Below are positions 584 to 48,344 of a stretch of 64,000 nucleotides of DNA, piece by piece. The stretch is from Ascidia mentula. Taxonomy: Eukaryota; Chordata; Ascidiacea; Phlebobranchia; Ascidiidae. The stretch spans positions 7,192,001 to 7,256,000 of the forward strand of contig OX387198.1 in assembly GCA_947561715.1 (NCBI GenBank). The letters are read 5' to 3'. The position numbers and the translations under genes are program-made. How positions within the stretch are numbered: position 1 is the stretch's first letter; every line of letters starts with the position of its first letter. The notes under the pieces are model-generated. The model did not search any database, was not told the origin of the DNA, and saw only the letters and a program-made list of their open reading frames with translations.

Positions 584-616
584 ACGCCATGGATAACATG
601 CCTCGTTATTACAAAG
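584..616 (+). pseudogene. orphan copy of the A-type mini-exon
   Basis: A 33-nt block flanked by ttttttag and gtaggtg encodes D-AMDNMPRYYK in phase 1-1, identical in protein to most A-type mini-exons of the 10-20 kb array. About 100 bp of flank on each side also matches the array introns, for example catattcacaaaatctgtcc upstream and gtgtaatgcgaatac downstream. No signal exon or other mini-exon lies nearby on this strand. It sits between claudin-like exons on the opposite strand, so it is most likely a stray repeat copy without function. Confidence 0.8.
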
Positions 617-3563: not shown

Positions 3564-4206
3564 TTATTCTTCTGGTTCAGGGGAATCCTCCAACAATTCA
3601 TCAACTTCGTTTTCATCCAAGTCATCGTCCTGTTTTTCCTCTTCTTCATCTAAAACAAAATATAAACATATCTCACACATGGAAAACTACTCTCTCGGTG
3701 AAAAAACTTCATCGAGTGTCGAATCAAATCATTTTTACAATAAACGTGAAACGTAAATGGCAAGGGCACCGAGAAAACCACTGGGGTTATTCGGTCAAAC
3801 ACCACCCAAGTGAAAGTGATTTCCTCACGGAGAATCATCGTCTGCCGTAGGACAGGCAGTCGCACTGGGAGGTAATGGGTTACGACAAGTTGTATATGAC
3901 GTCGGTATGCTACTCGGTCGTGAGTATCACAAAGGTTTAAACGTAAACGCCATATTTATACCTTTAAACGTGTGCTTAGTTACATTAGGCAAAAGTAATC
4001 TTTTACTTTAGACCGCAAAGCATTTCAAGTCATAAAATGTCAATTTTACCTCCTCTAACACAACGCCTTCGTCGCCTGTACACATGTCGTCGTCGCCTGT
4101 AGACGTGTCGGCGACGCCGTCGTCTGGCGCACCAATTGCCTTCAGATTCTTCAACCATGGTGCAGAGCACCGCAACAAGAAGGAGAGCGAGGAGAAGCTT
4201 GTTCAT
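3564..4206 (-). CDS. arginine-rich secreted peptide precursor 1 (antimicrobial-peptide-like)
   Basis: Two coding exons, 4206-4050 (157 nt, ends phase 1) and 3649-3564 (86 nt), give 80 residues. The ATG follows the acceptor ttgcag directly, so a non-coding 5' exon precedes it. Residues 1-23 are a signal peptide (MNKLLLALLL..., ending SEG). Residues 24-52 are extremely basic: 16 of 29 are Arg, arranged as Arg blocks separated by HVY, with Cys near each end (C26, C49) that could form one disulphide. Residues 53-80 are acidic (many Asp/Glu, ending EPEE). Signal, cationic peptide and anionic tail is the order seen in tachyplesin and several ascidian antimicrobial-peptide precursors. The mature region ends VRG, so the Gly could be an amidation donor. 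Secretion and antimicrobial activity are inferred; no named family was recognised. Confidence 0.82.
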
Positions 4207-6806: not shown

Positions 6807-7229
6807 ATGAACAAGCTTCTCCTCGCTCTCCTTCTTGTTGCGGTGCTCTGCACCATGGTTGAAGAATCTGAAGGTATCTTGTGTGCCGCCAGACGACGTC
6901 GTCGACACGTCGCTAGGCGACGACGACATGTGTACAGGCGACGAAGGCGTTGTGTGAGAGGAGGTAAGTTTATGTTTGACAGTTGCGTGTATTTCAATAA
7001 CTGATTGTTAATAGCCACGCCTTATTTGGGCATAAACAGGCATATTGCATGTGTTTACCTGGCTGCTGCATGCCACTCGGAATAAAATCTGATTTTAAGT
7101 TTGTTTGAATGAAACGTACGCAACCGAAAAATTGTTGTTTCAGACGAAGAGGACAACCAAGAGGTAGACATGGAGGCAAATGATGTTGATGATTTGCTGG
7201 AGGAGGATGCTGCTGAACCAGAAGAGTAA
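6807..7229 (+). CDS. arginine-rich secreted peptide precursor 2 (antimicrobial-peptide-like)
   Basis: Exons 6807-6963 (157 nt, ends phase 1) and 7144-7229 (86 nt) give 80 residues, the same exon sizes and phase as the minus-strand copy at 3564-4206. The signal peptide (residues 1-23) is identical. The basic region (24-52) has 15 Arg in 29 residues, the same HVY spacers (one changed to HVA), Cys at 26 and 49, and a VRG end. The acidic tail (53-80) is diverged in sequence (DEEDNQEVDM...EPEE) but keeps its charge and length. Conserved cysteines, charge pattern and tail length despite residue changes suggest a working paralogue. A membrane-active or nucleic-acid-binding defence peptide is the likeliest role; a nuclear basic protein is unlikely given the signal peptide. 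Confidence 0.84.
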
Positions 7230-9503: not shown

Positions 9504-9638
9504 TATAAATACACAGATGTTGCTGCAGAACATCGTTAAATTTTTGATCAACAGAAATAAGCACAAAGGTAAGTTGAACCTGTGTATTTCCATAAAGTGA
9601 GTAGAGATTTTATTTAATCTATGTGTTTTGCATTGCAG
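9504..9638 (+). promoter_or_regulatory. TATA box, 5'UTR exon and 5'UTR intron of the mini-exon gene
   Basis: TATAAA at 9504-9509. A leader exon ends at 9568 (gcacaaag before gtaagt). The 70-bp intron 9569-9638 ends cattgcag, directly before the ATG. This is the same architecture as both arginine-rich peptide genes (short untranslated exon, intron of about 70 bp, ATG at the acceptor), which supports common descent of the 5' ends. Confidence 0.72.
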
Positions 9639-12600
9639 ATGAACAAGCTTACACTCGCTCTCCTTCTTATTACGGTGCTCTGCACCATGATTGAGAAATC
9701 TTACGGGCATCCATTGCATGGTAAGTACAGTTTTTCAGACCATTTTGCGTTCAGTTACTAAGGTGGCAAAATCTGAAATATTACCGTAAGCAATTTTCAA
9801 ATTTGCCACAACTTGACGACGCAAAAAAGAAAATACCCTGATATTCGTAATTAAATCAGTTACGATACTGGCAATAACCACCGCATTTACGTTTCTATAA
9901 ATCGCTAAATAGTCACAAACAGCCGTGAATTGCAAAAAAAGAGAAACAATGCTTGTATCAAACACAAAACTATTTTAAGCGAAAATTTCCACCATGTTTT
10001 AAGCAATCTCCATTCTTTACAAATAAATGGTTCCGATTGTCATTTGTAACTTGCTTGTAACTTGCTATTTAGTCTTAGTACCTTCGTGGTAGTTTTGGGG
10101 GATTAGTTAGTATATTTGCCTCGCAGCAGCAAATATCAAATCATAGTCGATATAACCATCTAACATTTTTCAGATTCCGAGCCTGATGGTTACTACAAAG
10201 GTAGGAGAAAAATGACAAAACTTTACTCATTTTAGTTTATGGGCTAAGATAGACACAGTTATAGCATAAGGCATATTCACAAAATCTGTCCGTATTTACG
10301 AATATTTTTTTAGACGCCATGGATAACATGCCTCGTTATTACAAAGGTAGGTGAAATGCGAATACTTTTTTGACATGTTTTTGTACATTTCTACAGATTG
10401 TTTTGCTGTCTCACTTAACTAAATGCGCTTGAAAATTACGATACATGAATGAAAATACTTTGTGATTCATAATTTAATCAGTTACGGTACCGCCAATATC
10501 AACGACATTTACTTTGGTTACAAATTAGCCCTATTTAGTCCTATAGTTGTATTTCTTCTCCTTGATTATTTGGAATATTTGCATCTTAAGAGCAAGTTAT
10601 AAACTACTGTCGATATAACAATATGACATTTTTCAGATTCCGAGGAATTGCCAGGTTACTACAAAGGTAAGCAAAATGACAACATTTCATTCGATTTAGC
10701 TCATGGCTTACAAAAGCATTTAAATTGGACCTATCTTTAATAATAAGCAACAAGTTATAAATCCTGTCGCTACAGCTTTTGATGACGAAGTTAATATAAG
10801 TAAAATATAAAAGTCCATATCTGTAAATTATTGGCAAAGCACAGTTATAGTATAAGGCACATTCACAAAATCTATCAGTATTTACGAATTTTGTTTTACA
10901 GACGTCATGGATAACTTGCCTCGTTATTACAAAGGTAGGTGAAATGCGAATACTTTTCTGACATGGTTTTGTACATTTCTACAGATTGTTTTGCTGCCTC
11001 ACTTAACTAAATGCGCTTGAAAATTACTAGGGATGCACCGAAAGTTCGGTTTGCCGAATTTATTCGGCCGAAACTAAGGTTTTCGCAATTAATATTTCTG
11101 CAAAATTCGGCCGAAACCGAAACTTTTTTACTGCATGTAACGCTGATACGCGAAGTTCAGAAAAGGTTAGAATCCTTGTTTTAACTGTACGAATGTGTTG
11201 GTTAAAAGGATAAAAATCAAGTTATAGCAGTAAGAAAAATACGCGGTTATTCTTTATGAGTCAAAAAAGGCTGTACGATAAGATTAGATCCAATCCAGCA
11301 CATGTTTTGTTTAAATTTATTGCGTTGAAAGAGATGATATACCAAAATTAGTTTCGGTTTATTCGGCCGAATTAATTCGGCAACTTTTGCCGAATATTCG
11401 GTTTCGGCCGAATATAAAAATAGCTGTTTCGGTGCATCACTAAAAATTACGATACATGAATGAAAATACTTTGTGATTCATAATTTAATCAGTTAAGGTA
11501 CCGCAAATATCAACGACATTTACAAGTTTATTCTTTCTTTGCCATTATACGTCGTTCCGATTGTCATTCGTTACTTTGGTTACAAATTAGCCCTATTTAG
11601 TCCTATAGTTGTATTTCTTTTCTTTGATTATTTGGAATATTTGCATCTTAAGAGCAAGTTATAAACTACTGTCGATATAACAATATGACATTTTTCAGAT
11701 TCCGAGGAATTGCCAGGTTACTACAAAGGTAAGTAAAATGACAACATTTCATTCGATTTAGCCTATGGTACACAAAAGCATTTAAATTAGACCTTCCTTT
11801 AAATATAATTAACAAGTTGTAAGCCCTGTCGCTACGAATTTTGATGACGATGATAACATAAGTAAAATATGAAAGTCCATATTTGCAAATTATTGGCAAG
11901 GCACAGTTATATTATAATGGTTATTTACAAAATCTGTCAGTATTTACGAATTTTGTTTTACAGACGCCATGGATAACAAGCCTCGTTATTACAAAGGTAG
12001 GTGTAATGCGAATACATTTTGACAGGATCTTGTACACAGTGCCTTTATTGTACAAACAATTTCTGCAGATTGTTTTGCTGCCTCACTTAACTAAATCCGC
12101 TTGAAAATTACGATAAATGAATGAAAATACTTTGTGATTCATAATTTATTCAGTTACGGTACCGCAAATATCAACGAGGTTTACAAGTTTATTCTTTCTT
12201 TGCCATTATACGTCGTTCCGATTGTCATTGGTTTCTTTCGTTACAAATAAGCCCTATTTAGTCCTATAGTTGTATTTCTTCTTTTTGAATAATTGGAATA
12301 TTTGCATCTTAAGAGCATGTTATAAACTACTGTCGATATAACAATATAATATTTTTCAGATTCCGAGGAATTGCCTGGTTACTACAAAGGTAAGTAAAAT
12401 GACAACATTTCATTCGAGTTAGCCTATGGTACACAAAAGCATTTAAATTGGACCTATCTTTAATTATAATTAACAAGTTATAAATCCTGTCGCTATAGCT
12501 TTTGATGACGAAGTTAATATAAGTAAAATATAAAAGTCCATATCTGTAAATTATTGGTAAAGCACAGTTATAAGCCATATTCACAAAATGTATCAGTATT

Positions 12601-15600
12601 TACAAATTTTGTTTTACAGACGCCATGGACAACATGCCTCGTTATTACAAAGGTAGGTGAAATGCCAATACTTTTCTGACATGGTTTTGTACATTACTAC
12701 AGATTGTTTTTCTGCCTCACTTAACTAAATGCGCTTGAAAATTACGATACATGAATGAAAATACTTTGTGATTCAAAATTTAATCTGTTACGGTACCGCC
12801 AATATCAACGACATTTACAAGTTTCATCTTTCTTTGCCATTATACGTCGTTCCGATTGTCATTCGTTACTTTGGTTACAAATTAGCCTTATTTAGTCCTA
12901 TATTTGTATTTCTTCTCTTTGATTATTTGGAATATTTGCATCTTAAGAGCAAGTTATAAACTATTGTCGATATAACAATATGACATTTTTCAGATTCCCA
13001 GGAATTGCCAGGTTACTACAAAGGTAAGCAAAATGACAACATTTCATTCGATTTACCCTATGGTCCACAAAAGCATTTAAATTGGACCTATCTTTAATTA
13101 TAATTAACAAGTTATAAATCCTGTCGCTACAGCTTTTGATGACGAAGTTAATATAAGTAAAATATAAAAGTCCACATTTGCAAATTATTGGCAAGGCACA
13201 GTTATATGATAAGGATTATTCACAAAATCTGTCAGTATTCACGAATTTTGTTTTACAGACGACAAGGATAACATGCCTCGTTATTACAAAGGTAGGTGTA
13301 ATGCGAATACTTTTTGACAGGATCTTGTACACAGTGCCTTTATTGTACAAACAATTTCTGCAGATCATTTTGCTGCTTCTCTTGACTAAATCCGCCTGAA
13401 AATTACGATAAATGAATGATAATACTTTGTGATTCATAATTTAATCTGTTACGGTACCGCCAATATCAACGACATTTACAAGCTTATTCTTTCTTTGCCA
13501 TTATACGTCGTTCCGATTGTCATTGGTTACTTTGGTTACAAATTAGCCCTATTTAGTCCTATATTTGTATTTCTTCTCTTTGATTATTTGGAATATTTGC
13601 ATCTTAAGAGCAAGTTATAAACTATTGTCGATATGACAATATGACATTTTTCAGATTCCCAGGAATTGCCAGGTTACTACAAAGGTAAGCAAAATGACAA
13701 CATTTCATTCGATTTACCCTATGGTCCACAAACGCATTTAAATTGGACCTATCTTTAATTATAATTAACAAGTTATAAATCCTGTCGCTACACCTTTTGA
13801 TGACGAAGTTAATATAAGTAAAATATAAAAGTCCATATCTGTAAATTATTGGCAAAGCACAGTTATAGTATAAGGCATATTCACAAAATCTGTCAGTATT
13901 TACGAATTTTGTTTTACAGACGCCATGGATAACTTGCCTCGTTATTACAAAGGTAGGTGAAATGCGAATACTTTTCTGACATGGTTTTGTACATTTCTAC
14001 AGAATGTTTTGCTGCCTCACTTAACTAAATGCGCTTGAAAATTACGATACATAAATGAAAATACTTTGTGATTCAAAATTTAATCTGTTACGGTACCGCC
14101 AATATCAACGACATTTACAAGTTTCATCTTTCTTTGCCATTATACGTCGTTCCGATTGTCATTCGTTACTTTGGTTACAAATTAGCCCTATTTAGTCCTA
14201 TAGTTGTATCACTTATCTTTGATTATTTGGAATATTTGCATCTTAAGAGCAAGTTATAAACTACTGTCGATATAACAATATGATATTTTTCAGATTCCCA
14301 GGAATTGCCAGGTTACTACAAAGGTAAGCAAAATGACAACATTTCATTCGATTTAGCCTATGGTCCACCAAAGCATTTAAATTGGACCTATATTTAATTA
14401 TAATTAACAAGTTATAAATCCTGTCGCTACAGCTTTTGATGACGAAGTTAATATAAGTAAAATATAAAAGTCCATATCTGTAAATTATTGGCAAAGCACA
14501 GTTATAAGCCATATTCACAAAATCTATCAGTATTTACAAATTTTGTTTTACAGACGCCATGGATAACTTGCCTCGTTATTACAAAGGTAGGTGAAATGCG
14601 AATACTTTTCTGACATGGTTTTGTACATTTCTACAGATTGTTTTGCTGCCTCACTTAACTAAATGCGCTTCAAAATTACGATACATGAATGAAATACTTT
14701 GTGATTTATAATTTAATCTGTTACGGTACCGCCAATATCAACGACATTTACAAGTTTCATCTTTCTTTGCCATTATACGTCGTTTCGATTGTCATTCGTT
14801 ACTTTGGTTACAAATTAGCCCTATTTAGTCCTATAGTTGTATTTCTTCTCTTTGATTATTTGGAATATTTGCATCTTAAGAGCAAGTTATAAACTACTGT
14901 CGATATAACAATATGACATTTTTCAGATTCCGAGGAATTGCCTGGTTACTACAAAGGTAAGCAAAATGACAACATTTCATTCGATTTAGCCTATGGTACA
15001 CAAAAGCATTTAAATTGGACCTATCTTTAATTGTAATTAACAAGTTATAAATCCTGTCGCTACGGCTTTTGATGACGAAGTTAATATAAGTAAAATATAA
15101 AAGTCCATATCTGTAAATTATTGGCAAAGCACAGTTTTTGTATAAGGCATTTTCACAAAATCTATCAGTATTTACGAATTTTGTTTTACAGACGCCATGG
15201 ATAACATGCCTCGTTATTACAAAGGTATGTGAAATGCGAATACTTTTCTGACATGGTCTTGTACATTTCTACAGATTGTTTTGCTGCCTCACTTAACTAA
15301 ATGCGCTTGAAAATTACGATACATGAATGAAAATTCTTTGTGATTCATAATTTATTCAGTTACGATACCGCAAATATCAACGACATTTACAAGTTTCATC
15401 TTTCTTTGCCATTATACGTCGTTCCGATTGTCATTCGTTACTTTGGTTACAAATTAGCCCTGTTTAGTCCTATAGTTGTATTTCTTCTCTTTGATTATTT
15501 GGAATATTTGCATCTTAGGAGCAAGTTATAAACTACTGTCGATATAACAATATGACATTTTTCAGATTCCGAGGAATTGCCAGGTTACTACAAAGGTAAG

Positions 15601-18600
15601 TAAAATGACAACATTTCATTCGATTTAGCCTATGGTACACAAAAGCATTTAAATTAGACCTTCCTTTAAATATAATTAACAAGTTGTAAGCCCTGTCGCT
15701 ACGAATTTTGATGACGATGATAACATAAGTAAAATATGAAAGTCCATATTTGCAAATTATTGGCAAGGCACAGTTATATTATAAGGATTATTCACAAAAT
15801 CTGTCAGTATTTACGAATTTTGTTTTACAGACGCCATGGATAACATGCCTCGTTATTACAAAGGTAGGTGTAATGCGAATACATTTTGACAGGATCTTGT
15901 ACACAGTGCCTTTATTGTACAAACAATTTCTGCAGATTGTTTTGCTGTCTCACTTAACTAAATCCGCCTGAAAATTACGATACATGAATGAAAATACTTT
16001 GTGATTCATAATTTAATCAGTTACGGTACCGCCAATATCAACGACATTTACAAGTTTCTTCTTTCTTTGCCATTATACGTCGTTCCGATTGTCATTCCTT
16101 ACTTTGGTTACAAATTAGCCCTATTTAGTCCTATAGTTGTATTTCTTCTCTTTGATTATTTGGAATATTTGCATCTTAAGAGCAAGTTATAAACTACTGT
16201 CGATATAACAATATGACATTTTTCAGATTCCGAGGAATTGCCAGGTTACTACAAAGGTACGTAAAATGACAAAAATTTCATTCGACTTAGCCTATGGTAC
16301 ACAAAAGCATTTAAATTGGATCTGTCTTTAATTATAATTAACAAGTTATAAGTACTGTCGCTACAGCTTTTGATGACGAAGTTAATATGAGTAAAATATA
16401 AAAGTCCATATTTGCAAATTATTGGCAAAGCACAGTTATATTATAAGCCATATTCACAAAATCTATCAGTATTTACAAATTTTGTTTTACAGACGCCATG
16501 GATAACATGCCTCGTTATTACAAAGGTAGGTGAAATGCGAATACTTTTCTGACATGGTTTTGTACATTTCTACAGATTGTTTTGCTGCCTCACTTAACTA
16601 AATGCGCTTGAAAATTACGATACATGAATGAAAAAACTTTGTGATTCATAATTTAATCAGTTACGGTACCGCCAATATCAACGACATTTACAAGTTTCAT
16701 CTTTCTTTGCCATAATACGTAGTTCCGATTGTCATTCGTTTCTTTCGTTACAAATTAGCCTTATTTAGTCCTTTCTTTGTATTTTTTCTCTTTGAATATT
16801 TGGAATATTTGCATCTTAAGAGCAAGTTACAAACTATTGTCGATATAACAATATGACATTTTTCAGATTCCGAGGAATTGCCTGATGGTTACTACAAAGG
16901 TAAGTGAAATGACAACATTTCATTCGATTTAGTCTATGTTACACAAAAGCATTTAAATTAGACCTTACTTTAAATATAATTAACATGCTATAAGCCCTGT
17001 CGCTACGAATTTTCATGACGAAGTTAACATAAGTAAAACAGAAAAGTCCTTATTTGCAAATTATTGGCAAAGCACAGTTATATTATAAGGCATATTCACA
17101 AAATCTGTCAGTATTTACGAATTTTGTTTTACAGACGCCATGGATAACATGCCTCGTTATTACAAAGGTAGGTGAAATGCGAATACTTTTCTGACAGGGT
17201 TTTGTACATTTCTACAGATTGTTTCGCTGCCTCACTTAACTAAATGCGCTTGAAAATTACGATACATGAATGAAAATTCTTTGTGATTCATAATTTATTC
17301 AGTTACGATACCGCAAATATCAACGACATTTACAAGTTTCATCTTTCTTTGCCATTATACGTCGTTCCGATTGTCATTCGTTACTTTGGTTACAAATTAG
17401 CCCTGTTTAGTCCTATAGTTGTATTTCTTCTCTTTGATTATTTGGAATATTTGCATCTTAGGAGCAAGTTATAAACTACTGTCGATATAACAATATGACA
17501 TTTTTCAGATTCCGAGGAATTGCCAGGTTACTACAAAGGTAAGTAAAATGACAACATTTCATTCGATTTAGCCTATGGTACACAAAAGCATTTAAATTAG
17601 ACCTTCCTTTAAATATAATTAACAAGTTGTAAGCCCTGTCGCTACGAATTTTGATGACGATGATAACATAAGTAAAATATGAAAGTCCATATTTGCAAAT
17701 TATTGGCAAGGCACAGTTATATTATAAGGATTATTCACAAAATCTGTCAGTATTTACGAATTTTGTTTTACAGACGACATGGATAACATGCCTCGTTATT
17801 ACAAAGGTAGGTGTAATGCGAATACATTTTGACAGGATCTTGTACACAGTGCCTTTATTGTACAAACAATTTCTGCAGATTGTTTTGCTGTCTCACTTAA
17901 CTAAATGCGCTTGAAAATTACGATACATGAATGAAAATACTTTGTGATTCATAATTTAATCAGTTACGGTACCGCCAATATCAACGACATTTACACGTTT
18001 CTTCTTTCTTTTTCATTATACGTCGTTCCGATTGTCATTCCTTACTTTGGTTACAAATTAGCCCTATTTAGTCCTATAGTTGTATTTCTTCTCTTTGATT
18101 ATTTGGAATATTTGCATCTTAAGAGCAAGTTATAAACTACTGTCGATATAACAATATGACATTTTTCAGATTCCGAGGAATTGCCTGGTTACTACAAAGG
18201 TACGTAAAATGACAAAAATTTCATTCGACTTAGCCTATGGTACACAAAAGCATTTAAATTGGACCTGTCTTTAATTATAATTAACAAGTTATAAGTACTG
18301 TCGCTACAGCTTTTGATGACGAAGTTAATATGAGTAAAATATAAAAGTCCATATTTGCAAATTATTGGCAAAGCACAGTTATATTATAAGCCATATTCAC
18401 AAAATCTATCAGTATTTACAAATTTTGTTTTACAGACGCTATGGATAACATGCCTCGTTATTACAAAGGTATGTGAAATGCGAATACTTTTCTGACATGG
18501 TTTTGTACATTTCTACAGATTGTTTTGCTGCCTTACTTAACTAAATGCGCTTGAAAATTACGATACATGAATGAAAATACTTTGTAATTCATAATTTAAT

Positions 18601-20485
18601 CAGTTACGGTACAGCCAATATCAACGACATTTACAAGTTTCATCTTTCTTTGCCATTATTCGTCGTTTCGATTGTCATTCGTTACTTTCGTTACAAATTA
18701 GCCCTATTTAGTCCTATAGTTGTATTTCTTCTCTTTGATTATTTGGAATATTTGCATCTTAAGAGCAAGTTATAAACTACTGTCGATATAACAATATGAT
18801 ATTTTTCAGATTCCGAGGAATTGCCTGGTTACTACAAAGGTAAGTAAAATGACAACATTTCATTCGATTTAGCCTATGGTACGCAAAAGCATTTAAATTA
18901 GACCTTCCTTTATGTATAATTAACAAGTTATAAACCCTGTCGCTACGACTTTTGATGACGTTGTTAACACAAGTAAAACAGAAAAGTCCTTATTTGCAAA
19001 TTATTGCCAACGCGCAACTATATTATAAGGCATATTCACAAAATTTGTCAGTATTTACAAATTTTATTTTTTAGACGCCATGGATAACATGCCTCGTTAT
19101 TACAAAGGTAAGTGTAATGCGAATACTTTTTTGACAGGGCCTTGTACATAGTGCCTTTATTGTGAAAACAATTTCTATAGATCATTTTGCTGCCTCACTT
19201 AACTAAATCCGCCTGAAAATTACGATACATGAATGAAAATACTTGGTGATTCATAATTTAATCTGTTACGGTACCGCCAATATCAACGACATTTACAAGC
19301 TTATTCTTTCTTTGCCATTATACGTCGTTCCGATTGTCATTGGTTTCTTTTGTTACAAATATGCCTTATTTAGTCCTATATTTGTATTTCTTCTTTTTGA
19401 ATAATTGGAATATTTGCATCTTAAGAGCAGGTTACAAACTACTGTCGATATAACAATATGATATTTTTCAGATTCCGAGGAATTGCCAGGTTACTACAAA
19501 GGTAAATAAAATGACAACATTTCATTCGTTTTAGCCTATGGTACACAAAAGCATTTAAATTAGACCTTCCTTTATTTATAATTAACAAGTTATAAAACCT
19601 GTCGCTATGACTTTTGATGACGAAGTTAACATAAGTAAAATACAAAAGTCCATATTTGCAAATTATTGGCAAGGCACAGTTATATTATAAGGATTATTCA
19701 CAAAATTTGTCAGTATTTACGAATTTTATTTTTTAGACACCATGGATAACATGCCTCGTTATTACAAAGGTAGGTGTAATGCGAATAATTTTTTGACAGG
19801 GTCTTGTACACGGTGCCTTTATTGTAAAAACAATTTCTACAGATCATTTTGCTGCCTCACTTAACTAAATCCGCCTGAATATTACGATACATGAATGAAA
19901 ATACTTTGTGATTCATAATTTAATCTGTTACGGTACCGCCAATATCAACGACATTTACAAGTTTCATCTTTCTTTGCCATTATACGTCGTTCCGATTGTC
20001 ATTTGGTTACAAATTAGCCCTATTCAGTCCTATAGTTGTATTTCTTCTCTTTGTTTATTTGTAATATTTGTATCTTAAAGCGAGTTACAAACTACTGTCG
20101 ATATAACAATATGACAATTTTTAGATTCCGAGGAATTGCCTGGTTACTACAAAGGTAAGTAAAATGACAACATTTCATGCCATATTCACAAAATCTATCA
20201 GTATTGACAGGGCCTTGTACACAGTGCCATTATCGTACAAACCATTTCTACAGATCATTTTGCTGCCTCACTTAACAAAAATTAATGGAATCGGTAAACT
20301 TTATATAAAATAACTTGTGAACAAACTTGTTCTCTATGGTGGACAAAATCTAGCCCCTGATGTAGCACTGTCTTAACACCCCCGACAGCAATAATTTGTG
20401 GACCACCATCTATTCTTGTTACATACTTCAATATGTAAAGGTTGTTATCCAAACTAACCCAATTTTGTATTTTTTAGATGCTTAA
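9639..20485 (+). CDS. secreted tyrosine-rich repeat protein encoded by 31 mini-exons
   Basis: Exon 1 (9639-9720) encodes a signal peptide, MNKLTLALLLITVLCTM..., close to that of the arginine-rich peptides, and ends in phase 1. Then 31 mini-exons, all phase 1-1, alternate between S and A types. S: 10174-10200, 10637-10666, 11699-11728, 12360-12389, 12994-13023, 13655-13684, 14294-14323, 14927-14956, 15566-15595, 16227-16256, 16867-16899, 17509-17538, 18170-18199, 18810-18839, 19472-19501, 20125-20154. A: 10314-10346, 10902-10934, 11964-11996, 12620-12652, 13259-13291, 13920-13952, 14554-14586, 15192-15224, 15831-15863, 16493-16525, 17135-17167, 17774-17806, 18436-18468, 19075-19107, 19737-19769. 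The last exon (20478) gives Asp-Ala-stop. The sum is 354 residues. S units read DSEELPGYYK (variants DSEPDGYYK, DSQELPGYYK, DSEELPDGYYK); A units read DAMDNMPRYYK with changes at positions 2, 3 and 6. Every unit ends YYK. There are no cysteines or dibasic sites in the repeats. Function unknown. Confidence 0.85.
10174..20154 (+). repeat. tandem genomic array, about 640 bp per two-exon unit
   Basis: A-exon starts recur every 634-662 bp from 11964 to 19737, with steps of about 639 and 662 bp. Introns are as similar between units as exons, including markers such as gcatcttaagagcaagtt and gatgacgaagtt, so the array grew by recent tandem duplication or is homogenised. The step from 10902 to 11964 is longer only because of the inserted MITE. 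The first unit is shorter (588 bp) and more diverged. The 3' end carries a deletion that removed an A exon. Confidence 0.9.
11028..11442. mobile_element. hAT-like non-autonomous element (MITE), copy 1
   Basis: A 415-bp insertion in an array intron. Terminal inverted repeats are tagggatgcaccgaaa at the left and, at the right reversed, tagtgatgcaccgaaa. It is flanked by a perfect 8-bp duplication aaaattac (11020-11027 and 11443-11450). Neighbouring array units show the empty site gcgcttgaaaattacgatac with a single copy. An 8-bp target duplication is typical of hAT elements. Internal sequence is rich in ttcggccgaa palindromes and has no transposase. Confidence 0.9.
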
Positions 20486-29353: not shown

Positions 29354-30271
29354 ATGGTTCCATTTGACCTTGATAAAATGATAGAGATTGCAAAAGAGTG
29401 CAAGTACCTCCCTGAATATGACCTGAAACGACTGTGTGATTATGTGTGTGACTTGTTACTGGAAGAATCAAATGTGCAACCTGTTAGCACACCAGTGACA
29501 GTGTGTGGTGACATTCATGGGCAATTTTATGATCTGCTTGAGCTCTTTAAAAATGGTGGGGAGATACCGGAAACAAACTATGTATTTATGGGAGACTTTG
29601 TGGATCGTGGGTATTACAGTTTGGAAACTTTTACCTATCTTCTTGCCTTGAAGGCCAAGTGGTCCAATAAAATCACACTGCTGCGTGGAAACCATGAAAG
29701 CAGGCAAATTACCCAAGTGTATGGCTTCTATGATGAATGTCAAACAAAGTATGGGAACGCAAATGCTTGGAGGTATTGTACAAAGGTGTTCGACCTGCTG
29801 ACAATTGCTGCAATCATTGACTCAACCATACTCTGTGTTCATGGAGGCTTGTCGCCGGACATAAAAACCTTGGATCAAGTTAGAACCATAGACAGACAAC
29901 AAGAGATTCCACACAAAGGAGCATTTTGTGATCTAGTGTGGTCTGACCCTGAAGATGTCGACACTTGGGCAGTTTCACCAAGGGGTGCCGGCTGGCTATT
30001 TGGCGCCAAAGTTACAAATGAGTTTGTGCACCTCAACAACCTGTCGTTGATTTGCAGGGCCCACCAGTTGGTACATGAGGGTTATAAGTATATGTTCGAT
30101 GAAAAATTGGTAACGGTATGGTCTGCACCAAACTACTGCTATAGGTGTGGCAACATTGCTGCAATCCTTGTTATCAAAGAAAAGGGTGATAAAGAGGCAA
30201 AGCTGTTTCATGCAGTGCCTGATAATATGCGTGTGATACCAGAGAGAAACACCACTCCTTATTTTCTTTGA
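29354..30271 (+). CDS. PPP6C: serine/threonine protein phosphatase 6 catalytic subunit
   Basis: A single uninterrupted frame of 305 residues, the same length as the vertebrate protein and collinear with it from residue 1 to the end. PPP-family metal and catalytic motifs are all present: [28 protein letters not shown] and CVHGGLSPD. The PP6-type N-terminal stretch [17 protein letters not shown] and the C-terminal TPYFL, the substrate of carboxymethylation in PP2A-like enzymes, are intact. The enzyme acts with SAPS-domain and ankyrin subunits in cell-cycle and DNA-damage signalling. No intron interrupts the coding region, unusual beside the intron-rich neighbours. Full conservation argues against a dead retrocopy. 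Confidence 0.96.
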
Positions 30272-42500: not shown

Positions 42501-45500
42501 TCTTCTAAACCCCCTAACGTACAAACTCACGGTTCGCCTCGAAAACAGAACCTAACTCAGCAAACCGAACGCGCATCACAACAAGTGACAATAGGGCGTT
42601 CATGCCTGAATTGTACATTTGCACAGTTTTTTGTGCTAATACCGTAGGCGTCGCAATAACTCACTCTTTGAGAGATTCGAGATTTCTTCGCTTTGTTCTT
42701 TGTAACAGTCGATCTGCTCGTCTGTCGGGGGGTCATCCGGGAGGGCTTGTAGCTGTTCAACCGCGACCGCATTCGCTGCGAAAATCAGCTAATGTAAAAG
42801 AGCCAGCGTTGTTACGTTTTTTTACAGCCGCTAGAAAAAACATGTTGCCGTTTAACACAGGCACTAACGTTGTTGAAAACGTTCTGTGTTTTCTACGCAC
42901 ATGGTATTGTTAGTATTAAACTGTGCAGTATATCCCGCGTATGTGCATTTTCTATTTTGGAGTTAAACCTTTCACATCTTAGCAGTGTCAATACTTGCGC
43001 CCATACCGTCGATTTCGGTCAGCTATTGGCAGGAAGTAACCTGGCCAAAATGCACAGGAAAAATGTGTATGACGTCACAGTGGAGAATCCATTGTGTGTT
43101 GTCACTACTTAGGGCCACAGATGTAGTACCTCGTTCAAGGTCTTCAACCGCCGCTTGCATAAGCTCTTCGATTTTTCCAAACTGGTTAAGGCAGTTGCCT
43201 ATGGGCTCAAGGTCATTTTTGTATGTGTCTTCTTTCAGTTTTGCCAGAGCTTTATTCAACTTTCCTTTGTCTCTCTTCCATTCTGCCTGCATTGCAGATA
43301 AACAATGTTCAGGAATTGTGTATAAGCTGCAGACAGATGGCCACTGTTTTGACCTAAAAGGTCTCATCAGTGCAGCTGGTGTGACTGTAAGACGACTTTG
43401 CTGACCAAATGGCCAAGCAAAGACTTCCACTTTGTGTTCAGGAAGTCTAACTAAACAACTACAAGTGTTTAACGTTGGGGTAGATTTGTACAAATATGAC
43501 CACTATTTGGTGATTGTTTGCATTGCTACCTGAATTGAATTTTCAAAATGAGACACAAAGTCAACAATTGAATGGTGAAAATCAATTTTCTTATGTTTGT
43601 ATTTTTGTCCAGAGCTTTCCAATATTTATTATTGCCTGTCACCACACTAATTGGGCAAGGGATTCGCATTTCTTGTCATTGTATTGAACCCACATAAAAC
43701 TATACGAGAAAAGGGCGATAAGTAGTTTTTTTTAATAGTGGTTTATTGCCATATCTCCTAAAGTAGCTCATTTTAAAAACCATTAGACAACAAATCTCAT
43801 AATAGGCGAAACAAAATTTTCCTTTACGTCATTGCATGGCCATGCCATTAAATTTGTGTACCAAACTAGAAAAGATTGAAAGCCACAGGTCTACGAGACC
43901 AAATTTCAACAAACACAGCGTACAGCATATAAAAAAAGCAACACTTACTTTAGCCACCTGCCTGCAGCGGGAGGCGAGACTTTCAACCTCAGCTCTCAGA
44001 TGTTCACTTTCCTCCTCCGATCCGAACCTGATCCTCCTCATCACCTCAGTGTTGTTTGCATGAATCTGTTGTTCCAAACCCTCCACCTCTTCAGAGAGGC
44101 TGCAACATATAAAACATGCATGCATGCTAACAGACAAGCTTTAATAGAAGCCCTTGGGTCAAATCCAGCCTGTTGGTTCATTTAATCTGGCCTGCCAAAT
44201 GTTGGAAAATTTATGTTGCTTTTATGGCATTTCGGCTATATATGGCTTTTACACATTGATTATCATATATAGGTTCATAAACTGCCATGAAAATACTCAC
44301 ATAGCCCACTGGCATGCATGTCAAATCTTTTACTAAAATATGTGGCCTGTAGCTATAGTACATTTTGATTGACACCTATCAATGGCACATATCACACCTT
44401 TCCATTTTCTGTTGCACTGATTGAAGAAACTTGTTACAAATTGGGTTGCTTCGAGCATATACAAACACTGCTTCCGCTCTTTCACCAATATTTTCTGGTT
44501 TCTTGTGCGGTACTAAGCTCTGTCCACGCTTCATTGTCTAAAATAAAAAAAATAATGCACATTTTAGGTATATACTTATTATGGTTATGAACTACAATTT
44601 GCTGCTGCAATTTTGAAAGTGCATTACACAACAAAATGTGATGGGTGCCATGAGCTACTATCTACAATAGTTTTAGGCAAAAATTCAGTTTAAAAAAATC
44701 TTTGTTAAACCTTTGGGTAACAACAATTCAGGTAAAAAAAATGTTTGCTGCTTTTGAGGTTTCCTGTTAAATCAGATAAAAAAGTTTGGGAAACACTGCT
44801 CTAACCAACCCAAACTAAGTTAATCTGTTGTTAAGACCAACACAAATGCAAAAAACGCAGAACAGCAAGAATGTACAGTTTATATATACAATTAGTAACC
44901 TTTATGTAGGATCCCAATCGCACATCAGTATAGTTTTGCAGGAAGTCCTGTATTCCAATGCTATCAGGCTAACAAACAAAAAAATGTTCAGTGAAACAGT
45001 GAATAAACCTATTTTTGAGACAACAGGAAAACGTACCAGGACTTTCTGAATTTCTGTCATCGAGGTCAACATCAACAACGCATCTTGAGTTGAAGGTAGT
45101 TCGGTTATCCTAAAAATATATATATGTCGGTGGAATAACACTTGATAGCAAACTTTACATTATATTGATACCTATCCTCCTTGTTCTGCAAGTCTGTTTT
45201 TTCTGCAAGACCTGCCTTGCTAGAGCTGTCATCCAATGACTCAACATGGTCAGGTACATCCAAGCATATTTTCTTTTCCGCACTCACTTCTTTCTCTTCT
45301 TGTGTTTCTGGTGAAGCCTCCATTTCTTCACTGTGCCTCTTGCCACCTCTGGAAGGATCCAGTACCGGACTGCCCTCAAATAAGTCACATTTCTCCTCTT
45401 CACAGTTTTCGAGGGGTGAGAACTTGAACATATTGTCGTCTGACTTGCCTTCAAGCATTGCCCGTGGCGTGCAGTCCTGCTCATCAGAAAAACACTCCTC

Positions 45501-48344
45501 ACCGAGAACTTGCTCCGGAGATACAAGGTCATTTATCTCGTCCTCTGCTACCATACTGGAAGACAGCATTCTGTCAGTGTACTTTTCTGGTGACTGTATG
45601 GAGGTAACGTCGTTTTCGAGAGGTGAATGAGGGTACTGTGGACTCTTTGGCGACTGGGTAATGGTATCGCTAAGGCCGAGTCGATCAAATTCTTCATCAG
45701 TACGAAGCGACTGCGACGAATGAATAATATGTCGAGTATACAAACTTATTGAGTTTCTTGCCTTGGACAGTTTGGTGAAATCAGAGGAGACCCCTTGGGC
45801 ATTACCCCCATTTGCTTGGTCCATCACATCGTTCTTGATCAACATGTTTTCACTATGATGGCCCTTCGGTGTGGTCACATATAGGGCACTAGTAGCGACA
45901 ACCCTATTTTCAGGTGATGTTTCCACCATGCTGGGTTCAGCGTAATCTTTAGGGTATAGAGTTAAAAACTCATTTATTTTACCACCACCGCTGGGGCTAT
46001 TGGCTTCAGGTACAGGTTGCACCATGGTAAACTCCATTCCTTCAGTAGAGACCTCTTTATCAAATACCTTAGGCATGCATGTCAACTCAACACTGTCATT
46101 GAGGCCCATGTTCGTATGGTCATTTGTCTCGGACATATTACCACTGCCGCCACCAGGCCCCTGATTATTGGACACAATGCATGTGAATTCCAATTCATTT
46201 CTCTCGTCAGACTGCATGGTTCGAATTGGTGAGAGGACACTTTCGGATGATGGCAAAACTGCCTTCTTTTGGGGTGTCAGAAATGGTGAGGTTACATGAT
46301 GTTGTATTACAGATGTCAGTTTGCATGTCACCTCCATATCCTGTTGATTGAGATCTGGTGCTATTGATTCATTTGTGACATCGCTATTAGCTTCTGTCAT
46401 CTGTAGAGCAGAGACCTTGTTTTTGATTATCCATGAAGGCATTGATAATGGAGGGCTTGGTTCAGGTATTGGGGCATCATAGCCAGAACTGACCGATACT
46501 TGGTCGGGCACATGCACTGTCATTTCCACTGTTTCATTGAGGAAAACAGTATTGTCCCCATCATTGCCATCCATTGGATTATCTGAGTCTGCTGTGGAAT
46601 CGGGACGAATTGAGGTTGGCGGCCGAGCACTGTAGTTCCTCGCAGCCAGGGGTGGCAGCGACTTATTCGGGATGGCATCGGTCAATATCACACTGGAGTG
46701 AAGTGTGTTGTAGGCATTATTTTCACATATTATTTCCACGGACACCCCGGAGGGCGAGGCTAAAGGCGCTTTTTCCATCCTGTCAACTGTGCTTGATTTA
46801 GAGCTAGAAAGAAGGAACGAAGGCACTGGGACATTTTTCAATGAATCAACTACAGCAGTGTCCTCTTCGTCCTCGTTCATGTTGTAAAGAGGAAAACCAG
46901 GTTCATCTTCACTGGTTTCTTCCTTAATCATGAACATTGGCTCCAGCGGAGTCTGCTTCAATGGCAGCATGGCTTCACCATTGAAAGGAACCTGCTTTCC
47001 TGTCGACTGTTGCTTGTCATGAGATGCTCGTTGGAAGGCAGTGGAACAGATAGTGGTCAATTCCATGTTGGAATCATTAAACTGCATGAAATACAAGAAA
47101 TATTTGTGAAAGTTTTATTGCACATCACTGCATTTGACATGTTAAAACCCCAGATGACCAAACTGTGTTCAGGAATAAACAAATTACTTGAAATTTTTTA
47201 AAGCATAGTCATTTTAATGTTAACTTCCTTTTATCATGAACCTAAATTTACTGAAGACACATCAGACTTAAACACATCTCTTACTGCATCAGAACTTGTA
47301 GTTGGGCACTGGTTTGATGCAAGTGGGGCAAGTAGAAGAGATGACAAACTGCTTACATCCATGTCAGAGGATGGTTTTTTGGTCGGAACAGCACAACTTA
47401 ACCGAGATGCATCACTGATGTTAGTTGTGTCTGGTGAAAACACACATTTTAATCTACATTTGTGTTGGTGTGTGGTGTCCATATTTCATCAGGCAAATGT
47501 CCACAACTGACATTATGTGATGGTAAATAATTTCTTAGTGGTAATATATATACCTATTATAGACCAACAATTTATGTATAATATCACATTTATAATTTTA
47601 GTAAACATTTAAAACTCATTAAATGTTAATACTTACCAACATGTAACGTGGGGTCCGGCCATTTTTCGGCAATATCCGCAACTCGTGTAATTTCCCTGTT
47701 GATTGTATGCTCATTACAATACACTATAACCATGCACAAACTGTTAAACTTTAAATTGATTTTCAAGACAAAAAACATGGACAAAAAAGAAAGTATAGAA
47801 TGAACATTTAAAATGGCAGTTTTAACAAACTGTGGTAAAAAATGTATTATAAATAACTTTCTTACTTCACTTGGTAAGTGTTGGCAAAACTAACTCTTCG
47901 TTTCAGTCCTTTGCGATCTTCTTCAGTCTTGCAAATAAAAAGTACGTAAAGATTTTTTTACCAATGTCTTAGTGAAGGCATATATGATAGTTTTTGAGTA
48001 ACTATCCTTTTGGCACAAGTTAAGGTGACTGATCTAATGCACATCAATGCTTTAACAGATACACAAGCAAAAGCATATGATGGTCATATGTGTATTACCA
48101 TAGTTACATCAAAAGCATTGGAGTCGACATCAGCTAAAGATTTTCGGTTCTTCAATATCTGTTTAAACAAATAAACCTGATGATTTTGGAAGAACTAGAC
48201 TGTGCAAGCGGCAAAATTAGTGGAATTATAAAACGTCTTACAAGACAAGATAACATATTAAATGTAGCAAAGATTAATAAACATTTGCATGTCCAAAACC
48301 ATATCTACCGATGATCTGCGTTTCTTTTTCTGTCTTGCTTCCAT
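39581..48344 (-). CDS. KNL1: KNL1 kinetochore scaffold
   Basis: Seventeen exons in phase: 48344-48309, 48158-48099, 47927-47866, 47695-47637, 47430-47252, 47081-45172, 45109-45037, 44537-44398, 44099-43949, 43286-43130, 42775-42665, 41881-41716, 41408-41266, 41049-40931, 40399-40248, 40137-40036, 39686-39581. They total 1241 residues. The N-terminus has the two PP1-docking motifs of KNL1: SSILK at 11-15 and RVSF at 43-46. The large exon (residues 133-769) holds degenerate MELT repeats that recruit BUB3-BUB1 after MPS1 phosphorylation: MELT, VEMT, MEVT, LEFT, VELT and MEFT. Residues about 794-1034 are coiled coil (EEVEGLEQQI, EEEESEHLRAEVESL). The end forms the RWD region that binds MIS12 (FWKLVKDDE, FASIHVSKARRLLKQI, FYFRDLADAVLNLI). 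It is shorter than human KNL1 and has fewer, weaker MELT repeats. Confidence 0.92.
43321..43437. repeat. dispersed fold-back family member in KNL1 intron 9
   Basis: Contains gctgcagacagatggccact, gacctaaaaggtctcatcag, tgcagctggtgtgact and aagacgactttgctgacc. It matches 62441-62550 in reverse orientation along its whole length and shares its first half with the 21.0-21.5 kb repeats. Confidence 0.75.

Follow-up and report, generated by a model that had tools for sequence, protein, structure and literature searches.

A predicted gene of 31 alternating mini-exons for an acidic, probably secreted tyrosine-rich protein, and its Arg/Tyr-rich paralogs

In the micro-exon genes (MEGs) of schistosomes, reviewed in PMC10526429, symmetric exons of 6-36 bp make up about 80% of the coding sequence, and some MEGs, such as MEG-26, show an internal duplication of the exon-length pattern (PMC5825161). 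In aphids, the internal exons of bicycle genes are almost all of phase 2 and the products are putatively secreted, and microexons number over 100 in one megacycle gene (PMC9168663). Among tyrosine-rich proteins, the mussel polyphenolic protein carries a Tyr/DOPA (dihydroxyphenylalanine) decapeptide in up to 75 repeats, and morulin of the ascidian Phallusia contains TOPA (trihydroxyphenylalanine) and bromo-Trp (PMC3039461). Tunichromes, found in ascidian blood cells, are for the most part tripeptides of modified Tyr type, and roles in cross-linking, in the sealing of wounds and in the hardening or formation of the tunic have been proposed for them (PMC3039461, PMC10531651); a 2010 review called the knowledge of dehydrotyrosine and dehydro-DOPA biosynthesis “pretty scarce” (PMC3039461). 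Here we describe a predicted spliced gene, the focal gene, which would encode an acidic, probably secreted protein by means of 31 mini-exons. It lies in a stretch of 64,000 nucleotides (the window, C2:7192001-7256000) of a 195.8-Mb genome assembly with 79 contigs.

An exon-parsing script resolved the focal gene into a signal-type exon, 31 mini-exons that start at 10174 and run to 20154, and a last coding exon from 20478. All mini-exons are of phase 1-1, with lengths of 27 nt (one), 30 nt (14) and 33 nt (16), and two types, A (n = 16, mostly DSEELPGYYK) and B (n = 15, mostly DAMDNMPRYYK), alternate strictly. Each unit has 9-11 residues and ends in Tyr-Tyr-Lys, and there are 11 distinct unit peptides (four A, seven B). 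The joined coding sequence of 1065 nt, to which the mini-exons contribute 975 nt (92%), specifies 354 residues and closes with Asp-Ala-stop, which confirms the description given in an earlier sequence-only reading of this DNA. The signal exon encodes MNKLTLALLLITVLCTMIEKSYGHPLH, a hydrophobic N-terminus with an S-Y-G cleavage-type end as judged by inspection and paralogy, after which HPLH passes directly into the acidic units with no cationic Arg-rich core between. The protein has 63 Tyr among its 354 residues, a pI (isoelectric point) of 4.4 and a net charge of about -31 after the signal part. The length of the introns between mini-exons is divisible by three in 4 of 30 cases. Pfam gave seven low-complexity matches to the focal protein, all below their cut-offs, and a PDB search with its first 152 residues gave no useful match.

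The share of coding sequence in short symmetric exons, 92%, compares with the value of about 80% for schistosome MEGs (PMC5825161). MEG products are secreted, and the focal product would probably be so; the exon-length duplication inside MEG-26 has a counterpart in the likely construction of the focal gene by exon duplication. In contrast to the MEGs, the focal gene comes from another phylum and alternates two near-identical exon types 31 times in regular order. Membership in the MEG family was rejected, as no sequence relation was found among the protein candidates scored and the lineage is a different one, judging by GH6 domains and by the Ciona matches of the paralogs described below. A GH6 domain, known among animals as a tunicate hallmark in fusion with cellulose synthase, was found at two places in the genome (32.0 and 27.8 bits; cut-off 27), and we take the source to be very likely a sea squirt. 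Likeness to the aphid bicycle and megacycle genes consists in the many microexons and putatively secreted proteins, but bicycle internal exons are nearly all of phase 2 whereas 31 of 31 are of phase 1 here. Bicycle proteins follow a two-CYC-motif rule, whereas the focal protein has a single Cys, located in the signal part; with no homology, another lineage and the wrong phase, it was rejected as a bicycle family member as well. The sequence-only reading knew of no described family with such a layout, which was wrong, for schistosome MEGs (PMC5825161) and aphid bicycle and megacycle genes (PMC9168663) share it. The mini-exon layout is thus already known from MEGs and aphid genes, and it is the setting that is new: the architecture, described for secreted proteins of parasites and gall aphids, occurs here in an animal that is very likely a chordate and has no host to evade.

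Since all 31 mini-exons are symmetric and 92% of the coding sequence lies in exons of 27-33 nt, the focal gene might serve as a MEG-like generator of variants, in which skipping of mini-exons yields many secreted isoforms, perhaps for defence. The distribution of exact GTAAGT donors, present in 7 of 16 A exons vs. 1 of 15 B exons, is consistent with this. The phase does permit isoforms in principle, but the very large variant diversity thought possible from the sequence alone was overstated, because only 11 distinct unit peptides are available and the units are near-identical, so that isoforms would differ mainly in length; we regard a variant generator as quite improbable.

Comparison of the modules indicates that selection acts on the mini-exons. 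The exon finder required AG before the exon, TACAAAG followed by GT at its end, and exon length differences in multiples of 3; intact splice sites and the Tyr-Lys end are therefore not independent evidence. The regular spacing of the array, with both exons in every module except the last, whose B exon is deleted, and an independent DNA search, which matched 14 of 15 A-B pairs in full and the first pair in two parts, together argue that the finder overlooked no module. The difference between 14 modules (first excluded) is 2.9% for A exons, 4.4% for B exons and 7.5% for introns; with all 15 modules the values are 2.9%, 4.2% and 8.0%. A neutral simulation of 31 exons, with change at half the pairwise intron difference, gave 25.8 nonsynonymous and 5.8 synonymous codon changes, vs. 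12 and 7 observed in the 29 exons of consensus length (two length variants omitted). No stop codons were observed vs. 2.4 simulated, although the chance of no stops, 0.08, is weak evidence when taken alone. The amino-acid changes in B exons are confined to 3 of 11 positions.

The genomic repeat unit is the A-B exon pair. Thirteen of the 15 intervals between successive A exons measure 633-662 bp, one measures 463 bp and one 1062 bp, the latter holding 415 bp of inserted DNA between the copies of an 8-bp duplication, which we take to be a likely hAT-type MITE (miniature inverted-repeat transposable element). For one pair of A and B exons, homology was indicated by a score of 23, which none of 500 shuffles reached (18 at most), while their 120-bp flanks showed no detectable homology, 465 and 146 of 500 shuffles reaching the score. 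The last intron is composed of the A donor side and the stretch that elsewhere precedes B, with the post-B stretch joined on and the B exon gone. This loss of one B exon without a frame break shows directly that the gene has tolerated losing an exon, and the sequence-only reading was right about the in-frame tolerance of skipping. Further mini-exon arrays of A/B type were rejected for this genome, the DNA search returning only the array and one orphan B exon. A YYK-plus-donor pattern matched 67 times in the whole genome (30 in the array, one at the orphan exon and 36 elsewhere), and the matches elsewhere are at control level (reversed pattern 41); a more diverged array would escape both the pattern and the DNA search. 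The orphan exon at 584-616 and the lost B exon speak of ongoing turnover, as would be expected of a functionless tandem duplication that is decaying or silent. However, the exon constraint, the absence of stops and the complete layout of promoter, untranslated region (UTR) and poly(A) signal stand against this explanation, which we hold to be very improbable.

It is the paralogs that say most about the function of the focal gene; the sequence-only reading made no mention of them, nor of the TATA box, the 5'UTR exon, the poly(A) signal, the intronic insertion and the orphan exon. A DNA search of the genome with the signal exon found nine other places with 76-88% identity over 75-99 nt, and a protein search with the same exon gave 27 matches including the focal one (E up to 1). 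With a second protein query the matches numbered 46 (E up to 0.5), two of them to one gene. The matches are spread over seven contigs, and the weakest of them may be chance. Twenty-six loci read as a signal peptide plus an Arg-rich core, in which Tyr, Trp, His or other residues separate the runs of Arg; two of six small stretches tried with the reading pattern gave no reading. A TATA element, a short 5'UTR exon and a short intron before the ATG exon are common to the focal gene and the paralogs, with a TATA-to-donor spacing of 63 nt in the former and of 62-65 nt in six of seven paralogs tried, TATA variants being allowed. The pattern found no TATA in the remaining one, on contig C73, although TATAAAAG is present there. 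With a script that retained only acidic, phase-1 tails, 12 of 14 paralogs tried could be completed by a predicted last exon of acidic character. The focal mini-exons are acidic and of phase 1, but the focal last exon is Asp-Ala only, and the comparison search admitted acidic phase-1 tails alone. Pfam gave no match to the two paralogs submitted. A precursor profile built from eight paralog precursors, with 7983 candidates scored, found four proteins at E <= 0.01, three of which are from Ciona (two C. intestinalis LOC100177571 entries and one from C. savignyi); the fourth reads WWARRRRYYYRRRRYYYRRRRYDT.

Having no cationic core, the focal gene counts as a derived paralog rather than as one of the Arg/Tyr-rich precursors. 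In its likely origin, a gene of the Arg/Tyr-rich family would have lost its cationic core, a single exon of the type D..EE(L/M)P.YYK would have been duplicated into an A/B pair, and this pair of about 640-660 bp would then have multiplied in tandem. As the units are symmetric, with phase 1-1, genomic gain or loss, and possibly splicing, can alter how many Tyr-Tyr-Lys units there are while the frame is kept. A regular polymer made from symmetric mini-exons suggests a general route to growing repeat proteins.

RRRR runs separating YYY, YYYY or YYA, some of them led by WWWA, were read at C67:8237430-8237621, C2:3618415-3632723 and C2:15558484; the paralog at C67:8237430 reads RRRRYYYRRRRYYYYRRRRYYY and the one on C2 at 3.62 Mb WWWARRRRYYARRRRYYYARRRRYY. 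On the basis of their predicted products, these genes are candidate tunichrome/morulin precursors. The presence of Trp and of RRRR-separated YYY, YYYY and YYA cores in some paralogs gives them a composition that would fit tunichromes and morulin (PMC3039461), whereas the focal gene has no cationic core. Among the papers listed in literature searches, which for broad topics covered the first entries and included few subscription papers, none was recognised as an account of the focal gene or of any tunichrome gene. We tentatively suggest, as a rather doubtful possibility, that the genes behind ascidian tunichrome chemistry, missing until now, may be the focal locus and its 40-odd relatives, with RRRR-spaced YYY precursors that would yield small cationic cross-linkers and a mini-exon gene that would yield their matched acidic scaffold. 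On this view, a chordate would have a micro-exon gene in which each decapeptide exon adds one step to the length of the polymer. The Arg/Tyr-rich family makes the question of dehydrotyrosine and dehydro-DOPA biosynthesis testable, as its genes predict ribosomal precursors.

More matches to the family cluster at C73:12780346-12808031, where the one locus read has RRRR/SS cores, and at C52:22826544-22840159, where the one locus read has YYA cores. The predicted intron of a paralog at C2:7569170 begins with GC instead of GT.

The paralogs resemble multi-core precursors with basic cleavage sites and each focal unit ends in Lys, so the focal product could be a polyprotein that, by cleavage after each Lys, frees up to 31 short Tyr-Tyr peptides for modification, as the RRRR-flanked paralogs would free YYY or YYA. 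Nevertheless, neither dibasic nor RRRR sites occur in the focal protein, and Lys-Asp, the junction between its units, is cleaved poorly by known prohormone enzymes, which makes a polyprotein unlikely.

To the alternative we favour, a cross-linked scaffold, we give about an even chance: in an acidic, probably secreted protein of 31 units, tyrosines would be oxidised to DOPA, and cross-links with the cationic relatives would build it into material of the tunic or a clot. Exon architecture, exon constraint, a family-like signal exon with TATA and 5'UTR, adjoining paralogs and similar Ciona proteins are evident from sequence; we infer splicing, secretion, tyrosine oxidation, pairing with basic peptides and the site of use. 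The mini-exons would be spliced into one acidic chain of Tyr-Tyr-Lys units, whose Tyr pairs would be converted to DOPA and provide catechols for oxidation, with the lysines as reaction partners. The chain would bind cationic Arg/Tyr-rich peptides and be tanned together with them; opposite charge and one Tyr-Tyr-Lys per unit suggest that it is the acidic scaffold counterpart of the cationic paralogs. Tyrosinase-domain matches in the genome number 16, at exon level. Like mussel foot protein 1 with its tandem Tyr-bearing decapeptide, the focal protein repeats a short unit with a Tyr-Tyr-Lys end; but mussel foot protein 1 is basic, whereas the focal protein is acidic and has one exon per unit.

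Several points weigh against the scaffold reading. It assumes both the conversion of Tyr to DOPA and co-expression with the paralogs, and in ascidian adhesive organs DOPA-forming enzymes could not be localised and phenol tanning was deemed unlikely (PMC4275875). The absence of a cationic core and of RRRR sites means that the focal protein is not itself a tunichrome-like precursor. A protein database search with the focal sequence gave nothing at E <= 0.001 among 7996 candidates scored of 5.8 billion, a search limited by low complexity; the Ciona matches (E 3.7e-5 to 1.4e-4) are to the Arg-rich paralogs, and composition can aid such scores. The duplication of A and B rests on 19 aligned bases, because the flanking introns show no homology.

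Table 1 Predicted features of the focal gene and adjoining family members (window coordinates)
Feature	Position	Strand	Basis or remark
TATA-type promoter element TATAAATACA	9504..9513	+	ahead of 5'UTR donor
Predicted 5'UTR exon	9535..9568	+	start approximate, inferred from TATA box; donor AAAG/GTAAGT at 9569
Signal-peptide exon	9639..9720	+	ATG 9639; ends in phase 1
Mini-exon 1 A DSEPDGYYK	10174..10200	+	exon parse
Mini-exon 2 B DAMDNMPRYYK	10314..10346	+	exon parse
Mini-exon 3 A DSEELPGYYK	10637..10666	+	exon parse
Mini-exon 4 B DVMDNLPRYYK	10902..10934	+	exon parse
415-bp intronic insertion	11028..11442	.	inverted ends TAGGGATGCACCGAAA / TAGTGATGCACCGAAA; 8-bp target duplication AAAATTAC
Mini-exon 5 A DSEELPGYYK	11699..11728	+	exon parse
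Mini-exon 6 B DAMDNKPRYYK	11964..11996	+	exon parse
Mini-exon 7 A DSEELPGYYK	12360..12389	+	exon parse
Mini-exon 8 B DAMDNMPRYYK	12620..12652	+	exon parse
Mini-exon 9 A DSQELPGYYK	12994..13023	+	exon parse
Mini-exon 10 B DDKDNMPRYYK	13259..13291	+	exon parse
Mini-exon 11 A DSQELPGYYK	13655..13684	+	exon parse
Mini-exon 12 B DAMDNLPRYYK	13920..13952	+	exon parse
Mini-exon 13 A DSQELPGYYK	14294..14323	+	exon parse
Mini-exon 14 B DAMDNLPRYYK	14554..14586	+	exon parse
Mini-exon 15 A DSEELPGYYK	14927..14956	+	exon parse
Mini-exon 16 B DAMDNMPRYYK	15192..15224	+	exon parse
Mini-exon 17 A DSEELPGYYK	15566..15595	+	exon parse
Mini-exon 18 B DAMDNMPRYYK	15831..15863	+	exon parse
Mini-exon 19 A DSEELPGYYK	16227..16256	+	exon parse
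Mini-exon 20 B DAMDNMPRYYK	16493..16525	+	exon parse
Mini-exon 21 A DSEELPDGYYK	16867..16899	+	exon parse
Mini-exon 22 B DAMDNMPRYYK	17135..17167	+	exon parse
Mini-exon 23 A DSEELPGYYK	17509..17538	+	exon parse
Mini-exon 24 B DDMDNMPRYYK	17774..17806	+	exon parse
Mini-exon 25 A DSEELPGYYK	18170..18199	+	exon parse
Mini-exon 26 B DAMDNMPRYYK	18436..18468	+	exon parse
Mini-exon 27 A DSEELPGYYK	18810..18839	+	exon parse
Mini-exon 28 B DAMDNMPRYYK	19075..19107	+	exon parse
Mini-exon 29 A DSEELPGYYK	19472..19501	+	exon parse
Mini-exon 30 B DTMDNMPRYYK	19737..19769	+	exon parse
Mini-exon 31 A DSEELPGYYK	20125..20154	+	exon parse
Last intron, scar of deleted B exon	20155..20477	+	sequence comparison with other modules
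Last exon, coding part Asp-Ala-stop	20478..20485	+	reading and exon parse
Poly(A) signal AATAAA	20599..20604	+	sequence scan
Orphan B mini-exon DAMDNMPRYYK	584..616	+	with some 190 bp of array-type sequence; gene starts 9 kb downstream
Paralog 1, signal exon and cationic core NWCARRRRRRHVYRRRRHVYRRRRRCVRG	4050..4206	-	signal-exon search and reading
Paralog 1, predicted acidic last exon DEEEEKQDDDLDENEVDELLEDSPEPEE	3564..3649	-	exon joining
Paralog 2, signal exon and cationic core ILCAARRRRRHVARRRRHVYRRRRRCVRG	6807..6963	+	signal-exon search and reading
Paralog 2, predicted acidic last exon DEEDNQEVDMEANDVDDLLEEDAAEPEE	7144..7229	+	exon joining

Elsewhere in the window, a single-exon PP6-type phosphatase is present at 29357-30271 on the plus strand, with best named identities of 86-87% to vertebrate PP6, one further contig match at 88% and no tunicate name among the 120 matches listed, a pattern that does not decide the taxon. 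An open exon of 669 residues at 45105-47114 on the minus strand carries repeated M-E-L/F/V-T motifs and has no Pfam match; we take it to resemble the kinetochore protein KNL1.

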